A stretch of DNA of 23,568 bases from a virus, in the IMG/VR virus record IMGVR_UViG_3300022200_000445, positions 1 to 23,568 of that record, one strand, 5' to 3'. Each line of letters starts with the position of its first letter. The first letter of the stretch is position 1. Position numbers and translations under genes: made by a program. This document shows positions 5,197-19,524 of the stretch, in pieces. Below the pieces are notes generated by a model, which saw only the letters and a list, made by a program, of their open reading frames with translations, did not search any database and was not told the DNA's origin.

Positions 5197-6669
5197 TCAG
5201 CCCAATGCTATTGCCAAGGCAAGGGCAGTGCCCGCTTGGTCTACGTCTAAGTTAGTGCGTGCTGCAGCCGCTGTAGAGGCCCCTGTGCCACCGTCTGCTA
5301 CCGCTAGGTCACCTGATGAGGTAATAGTGGAGAGGTCCGCTGTAAGGACCCCTGAGGCGTTGAGAGTAGTGAAGCTACCAGCTGCTGCGGATGCACCACC
5401 AATGATTGCACCATCGACTGTACCACCATTGATATCAGCAGTAGTTGCTACAAGAGAGCTCGTAGTTACAGCTGCTGGGGTTGTACCACCAATAACTGTA
5501 CCATCGATTGTACCACCATTCAAGTCCATCGTGGTTACAGTACCGAGGCTAGTCCAAGTACCTGTAAGTGATCCACCACCTGTAGCGTTGAGGGTTGTGA
5601 CAGTTGCTGCTGCAGGTGTTGTACCACCTAGTACCGCGTCTACAGTACCAGCATTGATATCCGCTGTAGTGGCTACAAGAGAGCTCGTAGTTACAGCTGC
5701 TGGAGTAGTAGCACCAATAGTTGTACCATCGATAGTACCTCCATTGATATCAGTAGTTGTAAGGACTGAGGAAGCGACAGTAACTACACCAGTGACATCA
5801 GCGATAGAAGCAGCTGCTGTACTGTCCTTAGCTTTGATATTAGTAACCTCAAGGTTAGTCATATCGAAGGTAGTAGCATTAACAGTTGTAGCGTTGATAG
5901 TTACGAAGGTAGGGCTATCAGTTGTAGCTACACCTTGGTTCAATGCCTTGATAGCTGCGATGTTAGTAAGCTCAGAGTCCATGAGGGCTCCAGCAGCTGT
6001 TACATTGGTAGTATCAGTTACATCAGCGTTAGTTTCTACAGTGTCTAGCTTAGTACCGTCTGTAGCTACGTCACGTCCGTCTACAGTGCCACCAACAGTG
6101 ATGTTACCTGTAGCACTCAGTGCAGTGAAGCTACCAGCCAGAGGAGTTGTAGCACCGATGACAGTGTTATCAATAGTACCGCCATTGATGTCAGCTGTAG
6201 TAAGCACAGCAGAGGCAATAGTAAAGACGCCAGTGCTATCAGCAATAGTAGCAGAAGCTGTACCATCGTTAGCTTTGATATTTGTAACCTCTAGGTTTAC
6301 GGACTCAAGTGTTCCTGCAAAGAAACCGTCCTTAAACATGTAGATAGTGGCACCTAGGTCTACATCGTTAGTTGTAGCAGGGTACACAACACCGTTACTA
6401 ATATACAGCTGCTCCTCAGCTACAGAAGATACATCAACATAAAAAGATAGGCGATCATTACCTGTATCAATCTCAATCTTATTAAGAGGTGTGGTAAGAC
6501 CAGCATCCCCAATAAGACCGATGACTGGACCTTCAGCTGTAGTACCGTCATGAGCATGACCAGTAGAGTTGTTGAATGAGTCTAAAAGAGCATCAAACTC
6601 GTTGTTAGAGTCAGACGACTGGATAACGTCACCGTCTGTGTATGTACTCTGGCGTATGTAACCTGCCAT
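5197..6669 (-). CDS. Repeat-rich tail fibre protein, probably the proximal fibre
   Basis: A 490-residue protein, almost wholly Ala/Thr/Val/Gly/Ser/Asp with very few aromatic or basic residues. The N-terminus (MAGYIRQSTYTDGDVIQ...NSTGHAHDG) is a conserved phage fibre head with a HxH motif. From about residue 125 two ~32-residue blocks start with NLEVTNIKA, and five ~30-residue units carry the pattern TT-D-NGGT-DG--IG-TTPAA---S/TLxA. The C-terminus ends in VADGGTGASTAAAARTNL, a common fibre terminus. Such repeats form beta-helical trimer shafts. It lies immediately after the nozzle gene, so it likely bridges the tail to the distal fibres encoded downstream. No S74 domain or enzyme is present. 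Confidence 0.87.
   Translation of the reverse strand: MAGYIRQSTYTDGDVIQSSDSNNEFDALLDSFNNSTGHAHDGTTAEGPVIGLIGDAGLTTPLNKIEIDTGNDRLSFYVDVSSVAEEQLYISNGVVYPATTNDVDLGATIYMFKDGFFAGTLESVNLEVTNIKANDGTASATIADSTGVFTIASAVLTTADINGGTIDNTVIGATTPLAGSFTALSATGNITVGGTVDGRDVATDGTKLDTVETNADVTDTTNVTAAGALMDSELTNIAAIKALNQGVATTDSPTFVTINATTVNATTFDMTNLEVTNIKAKDSTAAASIADVTGVVTVASSVLTTTDINGGTIDGTTIGATTPAAVTTSSLVATTADINAGTVDAVLGGTTPAAATVTTLNATGGGSLTGTWTSLGTVTTMDLNGGTIDGTVIGGTTPAAVTTSSLVATTADINGGTVDGAIIGGASAAAGSFTTLNASGVLTADLSTITSSGDLAVADGGTGASTAAAARTNLDVDQAGTALALAIALG
5447..5703. repeat. 32-bp exact direct repeat inside the shaft gene
   Basis: The same 32 bases occur at 5447-5478 and 5672-5703, 225 bases apart (75 codons, in frame). 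They encode the TTSSLVAT part of two shaft units. Other, less exact copies surround them. In-frame recombination between these copies would shorten or lengthen the fibre by 75 residues. Confidence 0.92.
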
Positions 6670-6681
6670 CTAATCTCTCCT

Positions 6682-8391
6682 TTAGCGTCTAGCCGCTGTA
6701 GTGAATTCTAATTGGAAACCCTTGAGCGAGTAAGGGATCGATACGCCTGAGTCAATAACACGTAGCGCTACTGAGAAGCCTGAACCTTCAACTGGCTGTC
6801 TGACGAGAGGGTCTGTCTGACCACCGTAGGTTGCCACTCCGTAAACACTAATGCCATACAAAGCTACAACCTTGGTAGAGTCGAAAGGATAGGCTGCAGG
6901 TCGTGGTGAGCTAGATGACTCGTAGTCGTAACGAAGGAATAGGTCAGTGTTGATAGCACCCTCTGGAGCGTAGTTAATGATTACACGCTGGAATGCTTTA
7001 CGGATACCTGGGTCACCAGCTGTGATGTCAGGGCTACGATAGCGACCAATGATAGTTGTACCATCAAACGTATTACCTTGCTCAGCCCGATATACGTAGC
7101 CGTGGAAGTCACCCATAATCACGTAGTACTCACCTAGGTACTCCTCCGTATCACTGCAGTAGGGCTTAATGGCCTTTGTTGTAGCGAACTCGTAGGACTG
7201 CTCTGTGCGAGTACAGATAACACCTTGAGTGGTACTGATGTCAACGTCCGTAGAGCTAAAGAAGATACGGTACTGAGTCTTGTTAGGGATAACTAAAGCA
7301 TCAAACTCATCTACATCACTCCTATCTTGGAATAACTCTTGGATTGGCTTAGAGATTGTACCTAACTCAACGTCACCAATCTTGTCTGTACCAGCAATAG
7401 TACGTAGACCGTCTGGACCAAGGAATACAACATCACCAGCAAACTCTTTGATAGTCCAGCCGTTACGGCAACCAATCTCACGAGTAATAGGTTGCAGTGT
7501 GAAGTCAGCTTGTGAAGAACCTGTAAGCTTGTATATACGGTTAGCTGAGAAGATGTACAAGCTATCACGGAATACAATCATACCTGTTACAGCTGAGTCA
7601 ACTACAAAGCTACCAGCCCCGTTAGCTACTGAGAAGTCATCTAAAGTAAGAGGAGCTGTGTAGATAATCTCTTGTGGGTTAGATGACATTCCTGCATAGA
7701 AACCAGTATTCTTGAACACTGAGATATAGTGAGGGTCAGCTGGAGCATTAGTTCCATTTACATCAGTAACAGAAGTACCATCCCAGTAAGAAGCATTGTT
7801 AGCTCCGTCAGCAAAGGCAAGCAGCTCAGTACCGTTGAAGTTGATACGACGGAAGGTGTACTTCATAGCACCTGTACGGCCAGAGTCCACAACAGTCCAA
7901 GTTTGGTATACTGCTGCAGCGTCTAAGTGAGCTACTGCTGTAGTACCGTTAGCACCTCGTGTACAGCCCGTGAAGGTAGTTGTAGTTAAGCCTGTGTACG
8001 CGATCTGCTCAGAACCAATAATGATAGTACCTGTAACAGTGAATCCAGTTGTGCTTGCTACAGTAACTGTGGTAGCTACATCTGATAGTGCACCACTAAG
8101 TTCATTGATTGAATCAGTAGAACGGTAGATAGCTGTACCACGGGCAGCAATTACTTCACCTTGGTAAAAGGCTGACATCAGTACTGGCTCAGTAGGAGCT
8201 GCAGTAAAGGGTACGACCTCAGATGCCCACTTCTCGTGACCATTGATACGACGGTACCCACCAGCTGTGTCTGGTTCGAAGTTCTCTAGCTCAAGGGCCA
8301 TCCCTGGTTGTACAGAGAAGTTAGACTTGTTTAGAACAAGACCACCTTGTAGAGGAAAGATAAAGGGGCTCAGGCCACTTGTGTCTGCCAT
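6682..8391 (-). CDS. Tail nozzle / tubular protein B-like
   Basis: A 569-residue protein. The N-terminus (FIFPLQGGLVLNKSNFSVQPGMALELENFEPDTAGGYRRINGHEKW) is typical of phage tail-stabilisation/nozzle proteins of the T7 gp12 and P22 gp10 kind, which fold as a beta propeller and form a hexameric tip on the tail tube. Residues 105-161 look like an inserted small beta domain (VTVASTTGF, GSEQIAYTG, CTRGANGT). Propeller-like strands follow (IVFRDSLYIFSANRIYKLTG, GDVVFLGPDGLRTIAG). Residues 445-569 form a C-terminal beta domain ending in LKGFQLEFTTAARR. It lies directly between tube protein A and the first fibre, the expected order for a short-tailed phage. Placement and fold type are convincing; exact structural family needs a profile search. 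Confidence 0.85.
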   Translation of the reverse strand: MADTSGLSPFIFPLQGGLVLNKSNFSVQPGMALELENFEPDTAGGYRRINGHEKWASEVVPFTAAPTEPVLMSAFYQGEVIAARGTAIYRSTDSINELSGALSDVATTVTVASTTGFTVTGTIIIGSEQIAYTGLTTTTFTGCTRGANGTTAVAHLDAAAVYQTWTVVDSGRTGAMKYTFRRINFNGTELLAFADGANNASYWDGTSVTDVNGTNAPADPHYISVFKNTGFYAGMSSNPQEIIYTAPLTLDDFSVANGAGSFVVDSAVTGMIVFRDSLYIFSANRIYKLTGSSQADFTLQPITREIGCRNGWTIKEFAGDVVFLGPDGLRTIAGTDKIGDVELGTISKPIQELFQDRSDVDEFDALVIPNKTQYRIFFSSTDVDISTTQGVICTRTEQSYEFATTKAIKPYCSDTEEYLGEYYVIMGDFHGYVYRAEQGNTFDGTTIIGRYRSPDITAGDPGIRKAFQRVIINYAPEGAINTDLFLRYDYESSSSPRPAAYPFDSTKVVALYGISVYGVATYGGQTDPLVRQPVEGSGFSVALRVIDSGVSIPYSLKGFQLEFTTAARR

Positions 8392-9600: not shown

Positions 9601-9637
9601 TTAGGAATCCTTTCAAGATGTATGACTAGCAAAAGGA

Positions 9638-9661
9638 GGTACCCCAGTTACCCAGGGTACC
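9638..9661 (-). other. Stem-loop after the major capsid gene
   Basis: GGTACCC (9638-9644) and GGGTACC (9655-9661) form a 7-bp stem with a 10-nt loop, starting just 8 bases after the capsid stop codon. On the minus strand it is followed by TCCTTTTG, a short T tract. It may act as a partial terminator that lowers expression beyond the capsid gene, or as a 3' protecting hairpin. The TCC of the downstream sequence also lies close to the next gene's leader. Confidence 0.55.
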
Positions 9662-9668
9662 CACTGTC

Positions 9669-10742
9669 TTATGCCAAGTTGTACTTAGCTGTTACCAGAG
9701 CTTCTGGACGCAGAATCTTACGACCGTAGAGGTGCATACCACGAACGATGTCAGCAAAGCTGTCAGGGTCACGGTAAGTCTCAGTCTTGTTGATCTGCTC
9801 AGCAGAAGCTACAGCGGAGTCATGACCACCAACGATAACACCATAGTCAGTGTTCTGGTTAGCAGTACCCGTAGTAGCAGCACCACCGCCGACCTGTGGA
9901 AGGTTGTTGGATACATACACGCGGAAGCCGTTCCACTTGTTCATAACCAGACCGTTACGCAGACCACCAGAATCGCCGAAGTCAGCGTTCAAGAAGCGGG
10001 AGTCTTCGTCCATCAGGACTTCGAGCATGACTGGATCGATTACCAACCAACGGCCATCTTTGTCAACGTTCTGCTGGTCGAGCAAACGACCCATACGGTT
10101 GATAAGCATGACAGGAGAAGCGTAAGCTGTTGGCAAAGCAGTAGCACCAGGCAAACGAGCAGCAACTGGGATCGAGTGATCTGCAGCGGAGCCAGTTGTG
10201 ATGTTACCGAAAGAAGACTTGATGAGCTTCATGGAAGTCAGCAATTCGTCTGTACCAGCAGTCGAAACAGCAACAGTACCGTTTACCTGATCGTTAACAG
10301 TGTCACCAGCTGTGTGCAAAGCAGACTGCTTGTAACCTGAGAGGTAACCCAGAACTTCTTGGTCAAGCTGGTCAGCCAAGCGGTAAGCCGCACGGTTGGT
10401 TGCAAGGTCCATGAAGTTAACGTGGCTGTGAGCCTCTTCAATGTCGTCGATCTTGAAAGCGAAGTAGTTAGCTTTGTCGATTGTCAGGGAGAAGTCTTCG
10501 TCATCAAGATCTTGAGCAGCGATCTGTGTACCACGAGCATAGCTGGATACAGAGATTTCAGGCTCTTTGATGATCTTAACAGTATCGCCTTGGGAAGCGA
10601 TCTCACCGAAGTAATCGGAGTTAGTGATGTCGTTGGTGATCGACTTCTTACGGAAAGCAAGTTGTACTTTCTTAGAATAGATTACCGAAGAGAAGTTGCC
10701 GTTAGGCAGGTTGCCGTGACCGGCTGCAGATTGAAAAGCCAT
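9669..10742 (-). CDS. Major capsid protein
   Basis: 357 residues from the ATG at 10742, MAFQSAAGHGNLPNGNF. I prefer this start because GGAGG lies eight bases before it; the frame stays open 45 bases further upstream but without a comparable site. The protein reads like an HK97-fold major capsid protein of podoviruses: an N-terminal arm, SYFGEIASQGDTV-like strand region (NSDYFGEIASQGDTVKII), a long spine-like helix (NRAAYRLADQLDQEVLGYL), a P-domain segment (GRWLVIDPVMLEVLMDEDSRFL) and a C-terminal strand set ending in YGRKILRPEALVTAKYNLA. It follows the scaffold gene after a 336-base untranslated region holding its own promoter. No cleavage by a protease is indicated, since no protease gene is nearby. 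Several hundred copies build the head. Confidence 0.9.
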   Translation of the reverse strand: MAFQSAAGHGNLPNGNFSSVIYSKKVQLAFRKKSITNDITNSDYFGEIASQGDTVKIIKEPEISVSSYARGTQIAAQDLDDEDFSLTIDKANYFAFKIDDIEEAHSHVNFMDLATNRAAYRLADQLDQEVLGYLSGYKQSALHTAGDTVNDQVNGTVAVSTAGTDELLTSMKLIKSSFGNITTGSAADHSIPVAARLPGATALPTAYASPVMLINRMGRLLDQQNVDKDGRWLVIDPVMLEVLMDEDSRFLNADFGDSGGLRNGLVMNKWNGFRVYVSNNLPQVGGGAATTGTANQNTDYGVIVGGHDSAVASAEQINKTETYRDPDSFADIVRGMHLYGRKILRPEALVTAKYNLA

Positions 10743-11025
10743 TTGAATATCCTCCAAAGATGTTTGGCTTGATAAGACAAGACACACGTATAGTATTGAT
10801 TAAAGGGAAGGGTGTGTCTCAGTTAAGAGAACCTAAACAATCATTCTAAGAGGCTAATCGTTTCTAGGGTGCAACCTACCTTCGCTTGCCAGCTAGAGTA
10901 GATCGGGCCTATACTTAATTAGGTAGGTCTTTGTGTTGATTATTAGCGTTCAGTAATGGACCCAAAGGGGTCTACTGTAGTGGTCTAACAGGTATCCTAC
11001 TGAAAGGGGCTATTAGACCTCTAAA

Positions 11026-11054
11026 GTTATACCATACTCGATACCTGCTGTCAA
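11026..11054 (-). promoter_or_regulatory. Strong sigma-70 promoter for the capsid gene
   Basis: TTGACA (11049-11054), 17-base spacer, TATAAC (11026-11031), with TGG just before the -10 giving an extended -10. Eleven of twelve consensus positions match. Transcription would start near 11019 and run into the capsid gene. This allows more capsid than portal or scaffold message. Confidence 0.88.
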
Positions 11055-11071
11055 GGCTTAATATCGAGTAT
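11034..11071. repeat. 10-bp inverted repeat around the capsid promoter -35, operator candidate
   Basis: ATACTCGATA (11034-11043) and its perfect reverse complement TATCGAGTAT (11062-11071) lie on either side of the -35 box; one arm fills most of the spacer. The centre-to-centre distance is 28 bases. This suits a regulator binding over the promoter. As RNA it would also fold into a 10-bp hairpin ending the scaffold transcript, but no U-run follows. Confidence 0.6.
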
Positions 11072-11078
11072 AGAGGTA

Positions 11079-12002
11079 TTAGCGAGCTTTACCAGATACG
11101 TCGTAAACGAACTTACCTGAAGCCATTGCTTCTTGGATAGCATCGTAGCGATCCTCGAATTGTTTATCTGACATCTTAGCTACATCAGATTCCTTGATGG
11201 TTGAACCTGAGTCGTTAGAGTCAACAGATGTACGGCTTCCCTTAGATACAGTCTTAGCTGCATCCTTAGCACGAGCCTTCTTATCTGAAGGTGTAAGACC
11301 ATTGTCTACTTTGTAGAGGTCAAGTACACGGATAACACTGTCAGCATCGTCTGAGTTCTCGTAGAGAGCATCACGTACCCACTTAGGTTGCTCTTCAACC
11401 CAGTCGTGGAACTTGTCAGCATCACGGAGTTCATCAAAGTCAGCGTGTGCCTTACGGATGTTTGTCTCAGCCTTAGTACGAGTAGCCTCATACTTAGCCT
11501 CGTCGAGCTCCTTGAAGCGTCCCTCAGCTGCAGCAAAGCGCTCAGAGGCCTTCTTGTCAGCGATGGTCTCCACAATGGCAGCTACGTCAGGGTACTTACG
11601 GGCCCAAGCTTCGATGTCTTCATCTGACTTAGGGGCACGGATAGAATCGGATTGAACAGTAGAGGCTACGTCAAGCTTCTCTTTCCACTCCTTCTCCTTC
11701 TCAGCCATATGACGACGAAGATCACCGTACCGCTTCTTGAAGGACTTCTCCTCACGGCTTAGCTTGGAGTCGTCTTCTTCATCCTCTTCTACTTGAGGCT
11801 CAGCTTCGACTACGTCCTCTTCCTCCTCAGTATCATCGACCTCTTCCGTGTCTTTAGATACGTTAGTACGGCCTTTCATCAACTCTTCTAGTTCCTTCTC
11901 ATCCTTGTCTAGGCGAGCTTGCTTAGCTGAGTAGTTGGAACCACGTCCTGAGAAACTAGCTGTATCAGGGGTTGCGTTAGTTGCCATTGTGTTGGTAGAC
12001 AT
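11079..12002 (-). CDS. Head scaffolding protein
   Basis: A 307-residue, very hydrophilic protein. Residues 30-100 are strongly acidic (DTEEVDDTEEEEDVV, QVEEDEEDDSK); residues 80-200 are predicted long charged helices; the C-terminal third includes HADFDELRDADKFHDWVEEQPKWVRDALYEN and a short basic end. High charge, coiled-coil character and position directly before the major capsid gene are the classic signs of a podovirus internal scaffold, which templates procapsid assembly and then leaves. AAAGGA stands seven bases before the ATG. No protease domain is fused, so the scaffold is probably expelled intact. Confidence 0.87.
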   Translation of the reverse strand: MSTNTMATNATPDTASFSGRGSNYSAKQARLDKDEKELEELMKGRTNVSKDTEEVDDTEEEEDVVEAEPQVEEDEEDDSKLSREEKSFKKRYGDLRRHMAEKEKEWKEKLDVASTVQSDSIRAPKSDEDIEAWARKYPDVAAIVETIADKKASERFAAAEGRFKELDEAKYEATRTKAETNIRKAHADFDELRDADKFHDWVEEQPKWVRDALYENSDDADSVIRVLDLYKVDNGLTPSDKKARAKDAAKTVSKGSRTSVDSNDSGSTIKESDVAKMSDKQFEDRYDAIQEAMASGKFVYDVSGKAR

Positions 12003-12073: not shown

Positions 12074-15000
12074 TTACTTCTTCTTGCGAGGCTGGATAAG
12101 ACCGCCCCTGTTCTGAGGCCCTACTCGAGTGCCTCCACCCGAACCCGTACCTACCTCTGTTCCTGCTTTCATCTGACTACCAGAAAGCTTCGAAGCTGTC
12201 TTAGCGCTAACCCCAGCCTTACGGGCTGCGTTCATACTCTTTGCTTTAGACTCAGAAGTTGGAGTACTTACTTGGTTGGCCTTCTGTTGTGTAGCTGCTT
12301 TGTTTGTAGCTGCATTTGCTTTTGCACGTTCCATTGCCTCATTCCTACCGCCATCAGACGAACTAGACTTAGAACTAGAACTAGAGTCAGGTCTACTTGC
12401 TAAGCCAGCTTTAGAGGAAGAAGAAGATGGAGCAGCAGCTCGCTGGGTAGCATCCGTAGACCAGTTAGCTCCATACTCAGCTTTGACATTCTCAGCCAGG
12501 CGGTCTCCATCGCGCCAAGACTTAGGCACTAGCTCAAGTCCCTTTTCCTTAACAAAGGAATTGTACTGAGCATCAAGTTGGTCAGCTAGGTCTTCTCGAC
12601 CCATATCGCGAAGTGTAAGTGCATTAGCAGCCATCTGTGCTGCCTTGTTTGTATTGACAAACTTACCAACCAGACCACCAGCTAGACCACCACTTAGCAA
12701 GCCTTTAGCGGCTCCACCAAGGGACTCCAACCAGCCCTTCTCTTCTTCTTCTTCAGCACCTTCACCAGCAACACCGAGAGTAGACATCGACTGATTAAAG
12801 AGTGTTTCAGGGTCAGAGTAATCGTACTTCTTCATCCAAGCATTAGGATCACCTTTTGGTGCTGCAGGCGCTGGGCTGCTGTCTCGCTCACGCTTCTGCT
12901 GTACTGGTGCTGTGACGGGCATACAGACATTAGTCTCTGCATTCCAAGTGTACCCCTCAGGGCATGTCGGAGTTACTTCAGCTTCAGCTGTAGGCTTATA
13001 GGGAGTACCAGGGGCTTGTCCTGTAACGTCTGTTTCAGTAGAGAAGCCCATACCATGTGCATAAGGATTGTAGGAGCTTGCGTAGTTAGCTGGGTTATAC
13101 TCACCCTCCCCGTAGACCATACCACCTTCAGCAAAAGCTGCTGGCATAGCTTGACCTTGTACGGCAGGTGGAGCTGCTTGAGCAGGAACTGCTCCTGTTG
13201 CCATAGCCTGTTGCTGCGCTGTACCCTGTGGTTGTGGTTCTTGGATAAAGATACCCTTAGCCTTCAGCATATTGGTGACAGAAGCATCTTTACTTGCAGC
13301 AGCCTTAACCCGATCAATGATACCGTCTACGTCCATGCCCTCTACGAGGCCACCTGTAGCGTACCCATCGAGAGAAGCCAAGTCACCACCGAGGGTGTAC
13401 TCTTCTTCCATCTCTTTCATGTCCTCTTCAACGGGATCACCACCTACGCGGCCATCCTCTTTCATCTCCTCAAGACCTTCTTTAGCCTTGTTACGGAGCT
13501 TCTCAAAGTAGGAGACACCGAAGTACTTCACTACATCGGCAGGAACTACGTACTCACCTTCAGATAGCTTAGCATCTACGTCATCCCGTACGTCTACAGC
13601 ATTGGACCCAGTAGGGATCTCATTACCAGATACAGGATCGATGTCCATACCATCTGTGGCTAAGCCACCTTCTTTATACATCTTATTCATTGTATCTACT
13701 TCTCCTTGATTTGTAGCTAGACCACCTTCAGCAAATCTTAGGTCTCCGCTGGTTATTCTATCTGGATTAAACTCTGCTCTAGCATCTCTTAATACTGCAG
13801 GACTATCCTTTGGCCTGTCTGTTAACATAATAAAGCTTGTACTGCCTGGGTCTTCAATATTATTGGTATAGGGTATGTGGGTAAAACCTTGCTCTGCTAT
13901 ATCTTTTCTTAGCTGTACTGCAGTCTCTGTTCTATCAGGTAAGATGCTGTTGGAGCCATCAAACTTTTTCCACTCATAGTCGGATATGAATTTTCCTAAC
14001 TCTTCTTCAGAGAAGGTGTCCGTTGCGTTATCAAAAACCTCTTCTGTTTTCTTACCTAAAAGCCTTGCCGCCATCTCCTTTGTAAAAGGTTTATCCGTTC
14101 TTGCTCGTAGTTCCATCGTAGCACCACCACTACCACCTGTATAATAGTCACGTTCTGCAGCAGCACGAGGAGTACCAACGTGTACACCTAATATATCTTG
14201 AGTAAGCTTGGTACCCCCCTCAGGATCAGTATAAGAAGGGTCAAACTCTGTAAAGTCGTCAGGGGATTTGGAAGTGTGGTAGACAGTATCTGAAAAACCT
14301 AAATCTTCCGCTCTTTGGTCTGCCTCTGTCCTAGGCCGAGAGAAAGATGGCCTACCAATCTCGTCTTTGTATGGTAGTGGTCTGGTAGTTAACGTGGCAA
14401 GGTTTGGATCTGCTTTTTCTGGGAAGTAAGAACTTAAGTCCATTATAAGGTCATGTGTGTCACCAGATGAAACACCTGCAGCCCGTGCTGGGTCCGTTAT
14501 TTTTGTTTGTATGTAATCTTTGTAGTTAGGGTCTTTAAAGTGAGGCAGATCTCTTGCGACCTCAAGCAGATCATCATCAGAAAAACCCTCCAAGACTTTT
14601 AACTTATTAGCAGCCGCTTCCTGCATAGAAGGATAGGCAAGATTGCCTAAGTAATCCTTTTTCAGATCAGCTAAACCCTCTTCTGGGGTAAGGCTTACTT
14701 CGTCAGCCCAAACTGAACCTGCCCACAAATCTTCCGATGACACATCTCTTGGATCACCTAGTGTGCTACCTGTAGGGGTCTGATTGGGAGAAGGTACATG
14801 GTTTAAAACCTTCTTACCTTTATTAAAAAACTCTCTAGCACCCTTCTTAATAGCAGCTGCAGCAGCATCCCCTAGACCAGGAACAAGACCTATAATAGTA
14901 GCACCTCCTAAGGCACCTGCTAGATAATAGTTTGGCTCTTCCTTTTGCAGCTCATCATAGACATCCTTGGCAGCCATAGCGTCACCCACAACAGGTGTCA

Positions 15001-15160
15001 TTTCTGCTACAAAAGTGGCTGCATCTCTGAAAGTAATGTCATCTAAAGGTCTAGTATCTTTAACCAACTTGTCTGTATAAGCAGACCACTCACTAGGAGT
15101 ACCACCTGCTATCACTTCTTCTGTCTGATCGTAGGCATCCCATGAGTCTTTAGGGTCCAT
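12074..15160 (-). CDS. Large head-region protein with ADP-ribosyltransferase-like domain
   Basis: A 1028-residue multi-part protein. Residues 46-110 are hydrophobic and Gly/Ala-rich with VVGDA and VPGLGDA motifs, like the pre-toxin segments of polymorphic toxins. Residues 290-470 resemble toxin-type ADP-ribosyltransferases: VYHTS (H295), GVHVGTP (325-331), GFTHIPYTNNIEDPGSTSFIML (E436) and a closing EFNPDRI. Residues 475-640 form a module familiar from marine phages (DPVSGNEIPTG, KLSEGEYVVPADVVKYFG) with [FY]xxGG[LM] motifs. Residues 640-1028 are low complexity: a Cys pair (CPEGYTWNAETNVC), an acidic run, Ser tracts and a basic end (QPRKKK). The ATG overlaps the 68-aa stop (TAATG) after GGAG. 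The gene's first ~1.45 kb is AT-richer with AGA/AGG arginine codons. Placement between portal and scaffold suggests an internal or ejected virion protein. The transferase call is by motif resemblance only. Confidence 0.62.
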   Translation of the reverse strand: MDPKDSWDAYDQTEEVIAGGTPSEWSAYTDKLVKDTRPLDDITFRDAATFVAEMTPVVGDAMAAKDVYDELQKEEPNYYLAGALGGATIIGLVPGLGDAAAAAIKKGAREFFNKGKKVLNHVPSPNQTPTGSTLGDPRDVSSEDLWAGSVWADEVSLTPEEGLADLKKDYLGNLAYPSMQEAAANKLKVLEGFSDDDLLEVARDLPHFKDPNYKDYIQTKITDPARAAGVSSGDTHDLIMDLSSYFPEKADPNLATLTTRPLPYKDEIGRPSFSRPRTEADQRAEDLGFSDTVYHTSKSPDDFTEFDPSYTDPEGGTKLTQDILGVHVGTPRAAAERDYYTGGSGGATMELRARTDKPFTKEMAARLLGKKTEEVFDNATDTFSEEELGKFISDYEWKKFDGSNSILPDRTETAVQLRKDIAEQGFTHIPYTNNIEDPGSTSFIMLTDRPKDSPAVLRDARAEFNPDRITSGDLRFAEGGLATNQGEVDTMNKMYKEGGLATDGMDIDPVSGNEIPTGSNAVDVRDDVDAKLSEGEYVVPADVVKYFGVSYFEKLRNKAKEGLEEMKEDGRVGGDPVEEDMKEMEEEYTLGGDLASLDGYATGGLVEGMDVDGIIDRVKAAASKDASVTNMLKAKGIFIQEPQPQGTAQQQAMATGAVPAQAAPPAVQGQAMPAAFAEGGMVYGEGEYNPANYASSYNPYAHGMGFSTETDVTGQAPGTPYKPTAEAEVTPTCPEGYTWNAETNVCMPVTAPVQQKRERDSSPAPAAPKGDPNAWMKKYDYSDPETLFNQSMSTLGVAGEGAEEEEEKGWLESLGGAAKGLLSGGLAGGLVGKFVNTNKAAQMAANALTLRDMGREDLADQLDAQYNSFVKEKGLELVPKSWRDGDRLAENVKAEYGANWSTDATQRAAAPSSSSSKAGLASRPDSSSSSKSSSSDGGRNEAMERAKANAATNKAATQQKANQVSTPTSESKAKSMNAARKAGVSAKTASKLSGSQMKAGTEVGTGSGGGTRVGPQNRGGLIQPRKKK

Positions 15161-19495: not shown

Positions 19496-19524
19496 CTTAT
19501 ACCATATGTGTTCTTGTTTGTCAA
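19496..19524 (-). promoter_or_regulatory. Sigma-70 promoter at the start of the HTH/terminase genes
   Basis: TTGACA (19519-19524), 17-base spacer, TATAAG (19496-19501), with TGG before the -10, matching the capsid promoter closely. It lies four bases after the small-terminase stop. The expected start of transcription (about 19489) is inside or just beyond the first codons of the HTH gene, so translation from the promoter's own message would need a leaderless or internal start (Met codons at 19494 and 19470). It could mainly serve terminase and portal. Confidence 0.78.

Follow-up and report, generated by a model that had tools for sequence, protein, structure and literature searches.

What is an inverted repeat doing across the -35 element of a phage capsid promoter, and does it act in DNA or in RNA? 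The question is raised by a stretch of 23,568 nt, called the window here, which was placed by PHROGs annotation and blastn among the HMO-2011-type podoviruses. Its closest named relatives are the Roseobacter phages CRP-9, CRP-13 and CRP-1 and Puniceispirillum phage HMO-2011. Phages of the HMO-2011 type have been described as dominant in the ocean, with a broad distribution (PMC9038755). A term search of the same article returned nothing on promoters or transcriptional control. In the literature on leader RNAs in front of capsid genes or on RNase III sites, nothing was found for the HMO-2011-type group, and the published pelagiphage transcriptome belongs to other phage groups. The structural genes of the window are located on the minus strand in the order terminase, portal, a 1028-aa protein, a scaffold-like protein, a long gap and the P22-like capsid protein. 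The scaffold-like gene is named from its gene position only. The capsid gene most likely starts at the ATG at 10742, 3' of a GGAGG site. The 1028-aa protein (12074-15160, minus strand), with the portal and scaffold-like proteins as neighbours, shows no PHROGs match. All features discussed below are listed in Table 1.

Table 1. Location of genes, promoter elements and RNA features in the window.
Feature	Position	Strand	Basis
Scaffold-like gene, upstream of the promoter	11079..12002	minus	PHROG 13678, function unknown
Outer arm 1, ATACTCGATA, 5' strand of P0	11062..11071	minus	sequence, alignment
P0 inner helix CTTG-ACAG-CAGG with one U.G pair, over the -35	11044..11055	minus	alignment counts, nested fold
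-35 hexamer TTGACA	11049..11054	minus	sequence; TTGACA in 54/56 lineages
Outer arm 2, TATCGAGTAT, 3' strand of P0, within the promoter spacer	11034..11043	minus	sequence, alignment
-10 hexamer TATAAC, no -7T; preceding TATGG makes it an extended -10	11026..11031	minus	TATAAC in 55/56 lineages
P1 hairpin with 2 x 4 internal loop (CC / NUAC type)	10978..11023	minus	fold and comparison of relatives
Second hairpin CAGTAGACCCCTTTGGGTCCATTACTG, window's clade only	10951..10977	minus	sequence
Leader core: P2, P3, P4 (CCUA/UAGG), P5, GCACCCU	10828..10952	minus	model R1 83.5 bits, E 2e-19; covariation
Major capsid gene, P22-coat-like	9669..10742	minus	PHROG 267
Terminator-like stem past the capsid gene	9637..9662	minus	consensus match only
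Further late promoter-like site without dyad, TTGACA-17-TATAAG, close to the terminase genes	19496..19524	minus	sequence motif

A preliminary description of this DNA had proposed a TTGACA-17-TATAAC promoter with extended -10 at 11071-11026 on the minus strand. The position, the spacing of 17 nt and the TG of the extended -10, one base 5' of the hexamer, were all confirmed; read 5' to 3', the segment is ATACTCGATA TTAAGCC TTGACA GCAGG TATCGAGTAT GG TATAAC. For comparison, 140 scaffold-capsid gaps, including that of the window, were extracted from loci of HMO-2011-type podoviruses holding both genes. In 139 of the 140 gaps, the scaffold-like stop codon is directly followed by a TTGACA-16/17-TATAA(C/T) promoter. 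After removal of close copies 56 lineages were left, of which 43 have a spacer of 16 nt and 13 a spacer of 17 nt. This family-wide conservation supports the earlier proposal that a host-type promoter is located directly 5' of the capsid gene. The TTG-type -35, the spacing of 16-17 nt and the non-T base at -7 are those of alphaproteobacterial sigma70 promoters lacking the -7T, and the hosts of the named isolates are Rhodobacteraceae and other alphaproteobacteria. In the alphaproteobacteria studied, more than 60% of sigma70 promoters are without -7T, and CarD was proposed as their activator (PMC8407463). Since TATAAC has no -7T, the analogy suggests that the capsid promoter may lean on this host factor. 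That the motif is a promoter is also supported by HMO-2011, CRP-1, CRP-207 and CRP-603, in each of which the DNA polymerase gene has a second TTGAC-TATAAC site at its 3' end. Promoter-like sites at DNA polymerase gene ends were recorded at L155:12503, L154:10304, L156:11260 and L157:12610.

The inverted repeat is likewise present as it had been described, with 10 perfect base pairs, one arm 5' of the -35 and the other in the spacer. It had been called very unlikely by chance, which holds for this particular position but not for the window, where about one such repeat is expected. In first-order Markov shuffles of the window (n = 200; perfect 10-bp repeats, loop of 3-40 nt) the mean number of repeats was 1.1, and 110 of the 200 shuffled windows contained at least one. 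A pure chance origin of the repeat was rejected by its relatives, as their arms change together. Among close relatives, paired changes which preserve the repeat are found in L086 (ACTCAATA/TATTGAGT) and L089 (ACTCAAGA/TCTTGAGT). The lineages were divided into class A, which is the clade of the window with a 17-nt spacer, and class B, comprising the other lineages with a 16-nt spacer. In class A, matches of arms with their own partner amount to 126 vs. 116.8 +/- 3.2 after permutation of the partners, a value reached in 22 of 5000 permutations and inflated by relatedness.

Alignment of 24 distinct sequences of relatives (A1) resolves the repeat into two nested helices, an outer and an inner one, together named P0. 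The inner helix is CCTTG/CAAGG in many relatives and CTTG/CAGG in the window. In this alignment 77.8% of the P0 cells pair, vs. 27-48% when the pairing is slid. Double-change cells number 16 vs. 7.5 +/- 2.3 after shuffling, and none of 500 shuffles reached 16, the kinship of the sequences being uncorrected. Between the helices a bulge occurs on the 5' side only and the axes of the outer and inner helix do not coincide. The outer arms are perfectly symmetric in the window, and clade-wide the two axes are about 3 columns apart. Column-by-column covariation over ungapped promoters was uninformative, since the axis of the repeat shifts between lineages.

The nesting of the helices, their shifted axes and the bulge on one side favour an RNA over a symmetric protein-binding site. 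From the sequence comparisons, we regard an RNA hairpin in the transcript reading through from the scaffold-like gene as the most likely nature of the repeat, with about an even chance of being right. The stop codon of that gene ends 5 nt ahead of the predicted hairpin in the window. Over 34 lineages of both classes, the hairpin starts 2.8 +/- 2.1 nt past the scaffold stop codon and at -8.9 +/- 7.8 from the -35. In class A (16 lineages) the mean z of the fold is -3.34 for the sense vs. -2.42 for the antisense strand, and the shuffle-corrected difference amounts to -1.6 kcal/mol (Wilcoxon p 0.011). For the 46 lineages of class B the two strands do not differ significantly (p 0.21), and a clear hairpin is missing in about half of them. 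G.U cells in P0 outnumber A.C cells by 24 to 13, an excess which strand-biased mutation could also produce. Bases -6 to -1, located 5' of the canonical start, pair with the P1 partner of their own lineage better than with that of other lineages; this was equalled in 0 of 3000 permutations, a result inflated by relatedness. Read-through RNA is implied by this pairing, because these bases precede the start.

As an intrinsic terminator P0 was rejected, as it lacks a U-run, is followed by GGTATAACTTTAG and is unlisted by the terminator scan. A hairpin promoter of the N4 type was also rejected: a virion RNA polymerase of about 3500 aa is absent, the longest open reading frame being 1028 aa in the window and 1270 aa in a 48-kb relative.

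The preliminary description had regarded the repeat as suited to an operator. Its non-random dyad overlapping the promoter stands, but the conclusion drawn from it is weakened by the single site, the shifted axes of the nested, one-sidedly bulged helices and the tracking of the scaffold stop codon by the start of the repeat. A dimeric phage or host regulator would bind the dyad over the -35 and block RNA polymerase until late infection, which we consider unlikely in spite of several observations in its favour. The arms flank the -35, the second of them being in the spacer, and they covary; moreover, a strong promoter would require restraint. Class B lineages contain different repeats inside the promoter with recurring axes, and as a whole set these exceed shuffles with a combined p of about 1e-7. 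However, a search for further sites found ATACTCGATA in exact form only at the capsid promoter of a near-identical, near-complete relative of 48 kb, and only one exact arm pair occurs in the 47.9 kb of this record, which may be incomplete. At 19524 and 86 (minus strand) the window has two more strong promoter-like sites, both without dyad. A Pfam search of 30 proteins revealed no HTH or other DNA-binding regulator and a single weak match to an HNH nuclease; small novel proteins can escape such a search, and a typical genome has 55 kb, several kb more than the sequence it covered.

A double function, in which P0 works as a hairpin of the read-through RNA and a regulator recognises the same symmetry in the DNA, appears rather improbable. 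It shares the support of the RNA and the operator readings, and with perfect arms, as in the window, DNA symmetry and RNA pairing are inseparable, but neither a regulator nor a second site was found. Somewhat more doubtful still is a processing site, at which RNase III or E would separate the scaffold and capsid parts of a polycistronic late message. The RNA folds, and a hairpin between two cistrons, one per genome, would be in line with such a site. The interrupted outer stem of only about 7-10 bp is short for RNase III, however, and the lack of a clear hairpin in about half of the class B lineages also speaks against cleavage here. That the repeat has no function, having arisen by chance or merely as a consequence of TTGACA and the extended -10, is very improbable: the expected number of repeats per window, the near-palindromic TTGACA(A) and the overlap of TATG in arm 2 with the extended -10 would fit, but arm 1, on which the promoter imposes no constraint, is nevertheless conserved and covaries with arm 2.

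Downstream of the promoter, the gap contains a conserved leader of roughly 277 nt, which is the stronger discovery compared to the repeat. It is almost certainly a real structured RNA, whose P1 and core end a little 5' of the capsid start codon. A search with the P1 motif gave a match in 44 of 53 relatives. The core of 125 nt is closed by the helices P2 and P3; P4 is CCUG/CAGG in relatives and CCUA/UAGG in the window, GGCCC and GCACCCU are invariant, and the P5 hairpin is hypervariable and covaries. In an alignment of 32 diverse core sequences (A2), with the structure named by hand, 85% of the core cells pair. Double-change cells amount to 151 vs. 57.9 +/- 6.8 after shuffling, with kinship uncorrected, and the covariation score is 0.387 vs. 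at most 0.107 for slid versions. A covariance model (R1) detected the core in isolates outside its training set, namely HMO-2011 (E 2e-8), CRP-603 (E 1e-7), CRP-207 (E 2e-7) and CRP-3 (E 4e-6), in each case upstream of the capsid gene. Compensatory changes and a fixed place in the 5' UTR, occupied once per genome, are both found, these being the general marks of a structured cis-regulatory leader. The core was also matched in two contigs of bacterial assemblies, and a weak second match in L229 (E 0.09) is probably due to chance.

Searches against Rfam 15 gave no credible match for the leader at permissive thresholds and none at gathering cut-offs in 12 relatives. Candidates such as RMST_5 and mir-1805, obtained at permissive thresholds, were rejected as chance-level matches. 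RNAalifold predicted almost no structure from a leader alignment of 60 sequences with ragged 3' ends; the structure emerged after the alignment was restricted to the core. No core was detected 5' of the capsid gene in the pelagiphages HTVC115P and HTVC033P or in Aeromonas phage 1233. Phages of Rhizobium and Sinorhizobium gave no significant match either; in their short gaps, inspection by eye shows only look-alike loops. Sinorhizobium phiM6 (L280) and Rhizobium RHph_I3_11 (L281) show short pre-capsid leaders which, judged by eye, seem to contain two nested copies of a CC/CUACC-like internal loop and to be without the rest of the core.

Some relatives carry insertions in this region. In L288:1903-3888 (NVWB01000161.1) the capsid gene is split after about residue 62 by approximately 0.9 kb with a 234-aa open reading frame, which resembles an intron-borne homing endonuclease; the promoter and leader upstream are intact. 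An HNH endonuclease gene is located inside the leader in L286:1848-2417 (MW202701.1, ctYwJ313), splitting promoter and P1 from the core. Elsewhere in the 48-kb relative, a SbmA/BacA-like transporter (Pfam E 1e-121) adjoins a Clp protease-like protein (L158:5670-6641 and 6610-7263), which is unusual cargo for a phage. In class B relatives, e.g., L147 and L028, the scaffold gene closes with a TCTGGC-NNN-GCCAGA inverted repeat, located in its final codons just 5' of the stop; the strong pairwise signal of this repeat may reflect codon usage alone.

Returning to P0 as an RNA hairpin, a possible course of events at the junction can be outlined. Late transcription would enter from upstream as well as from the capsid promoter, where host RNA polymerase may start near 11019. 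The minus-strand site near the terminase genes is a possible source of the read-through. P0, which lies just past the scaffold-like stop codon and shares its DNA with the sigma70-type promoter, may mark the junction and protect or insulate the scaffold message at its 3' end. The leader, in turn, may control how stable the capsid message is or how well it is translated, and capsid would thereby be made in excess of scaffold. The likeness of the CC/CUACC-type loops in P1 and the core, judged by eye, suggests two sites for one binding partner. We tentatively suggest, as a possibility rather than an expectation, a new class of regulatory RNA at the HMO-2011-type junction. It would consist of P0, P1 and the multi-helix core with a shared CC/CUACC-like loop, bind a phage protein or a small molecule and set the capsid-to-scaffold ratio, the promoter being embedded in its 5' part. 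The conserved promoter and structured leader would offer a handle on how capsid is produced in time and in excess by phages without their own RNA polymerase. With its strong covariation and its absence from Rfam, the leader lends itself directly to studies of its structure and possible ligands.

Among known systems, operators of the lambda/P22 repressor type resemble the locus in that a strong promoter carries an inverted repeat across its -35 region. In contrast to these, the phage described here has a single site, lineage-specific arms and nested, one-sidedly bulged helices, and no repressor was found among the proteins searched. The leader resembles Rfam riboswitches and ribosomal protein leaders as a multi-helix 5' UTR RNA with compensatory changes and invariant bases, but it matches no Rfam 15 family and precedes a phage capsid gene. 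In phage T7, phi10 is a separate strong promoter between the scaffold and capsid genes. The window shares this own promoter at the scaffold/capsid junction; unlike phi10, it is of host type, and a phage RNA polymerase was absent from the annotations examined for the HMO-2011-type group. The promoters without -7T of the Rhodobacter sphaeroides type have the same TTGACA -35, spacer of 16-17 nt and -10 ending in a non-T base. Whereas the bases at -7 are mixed in that type, TATAAC is near-invariant over the 56 lineages of the phage group.
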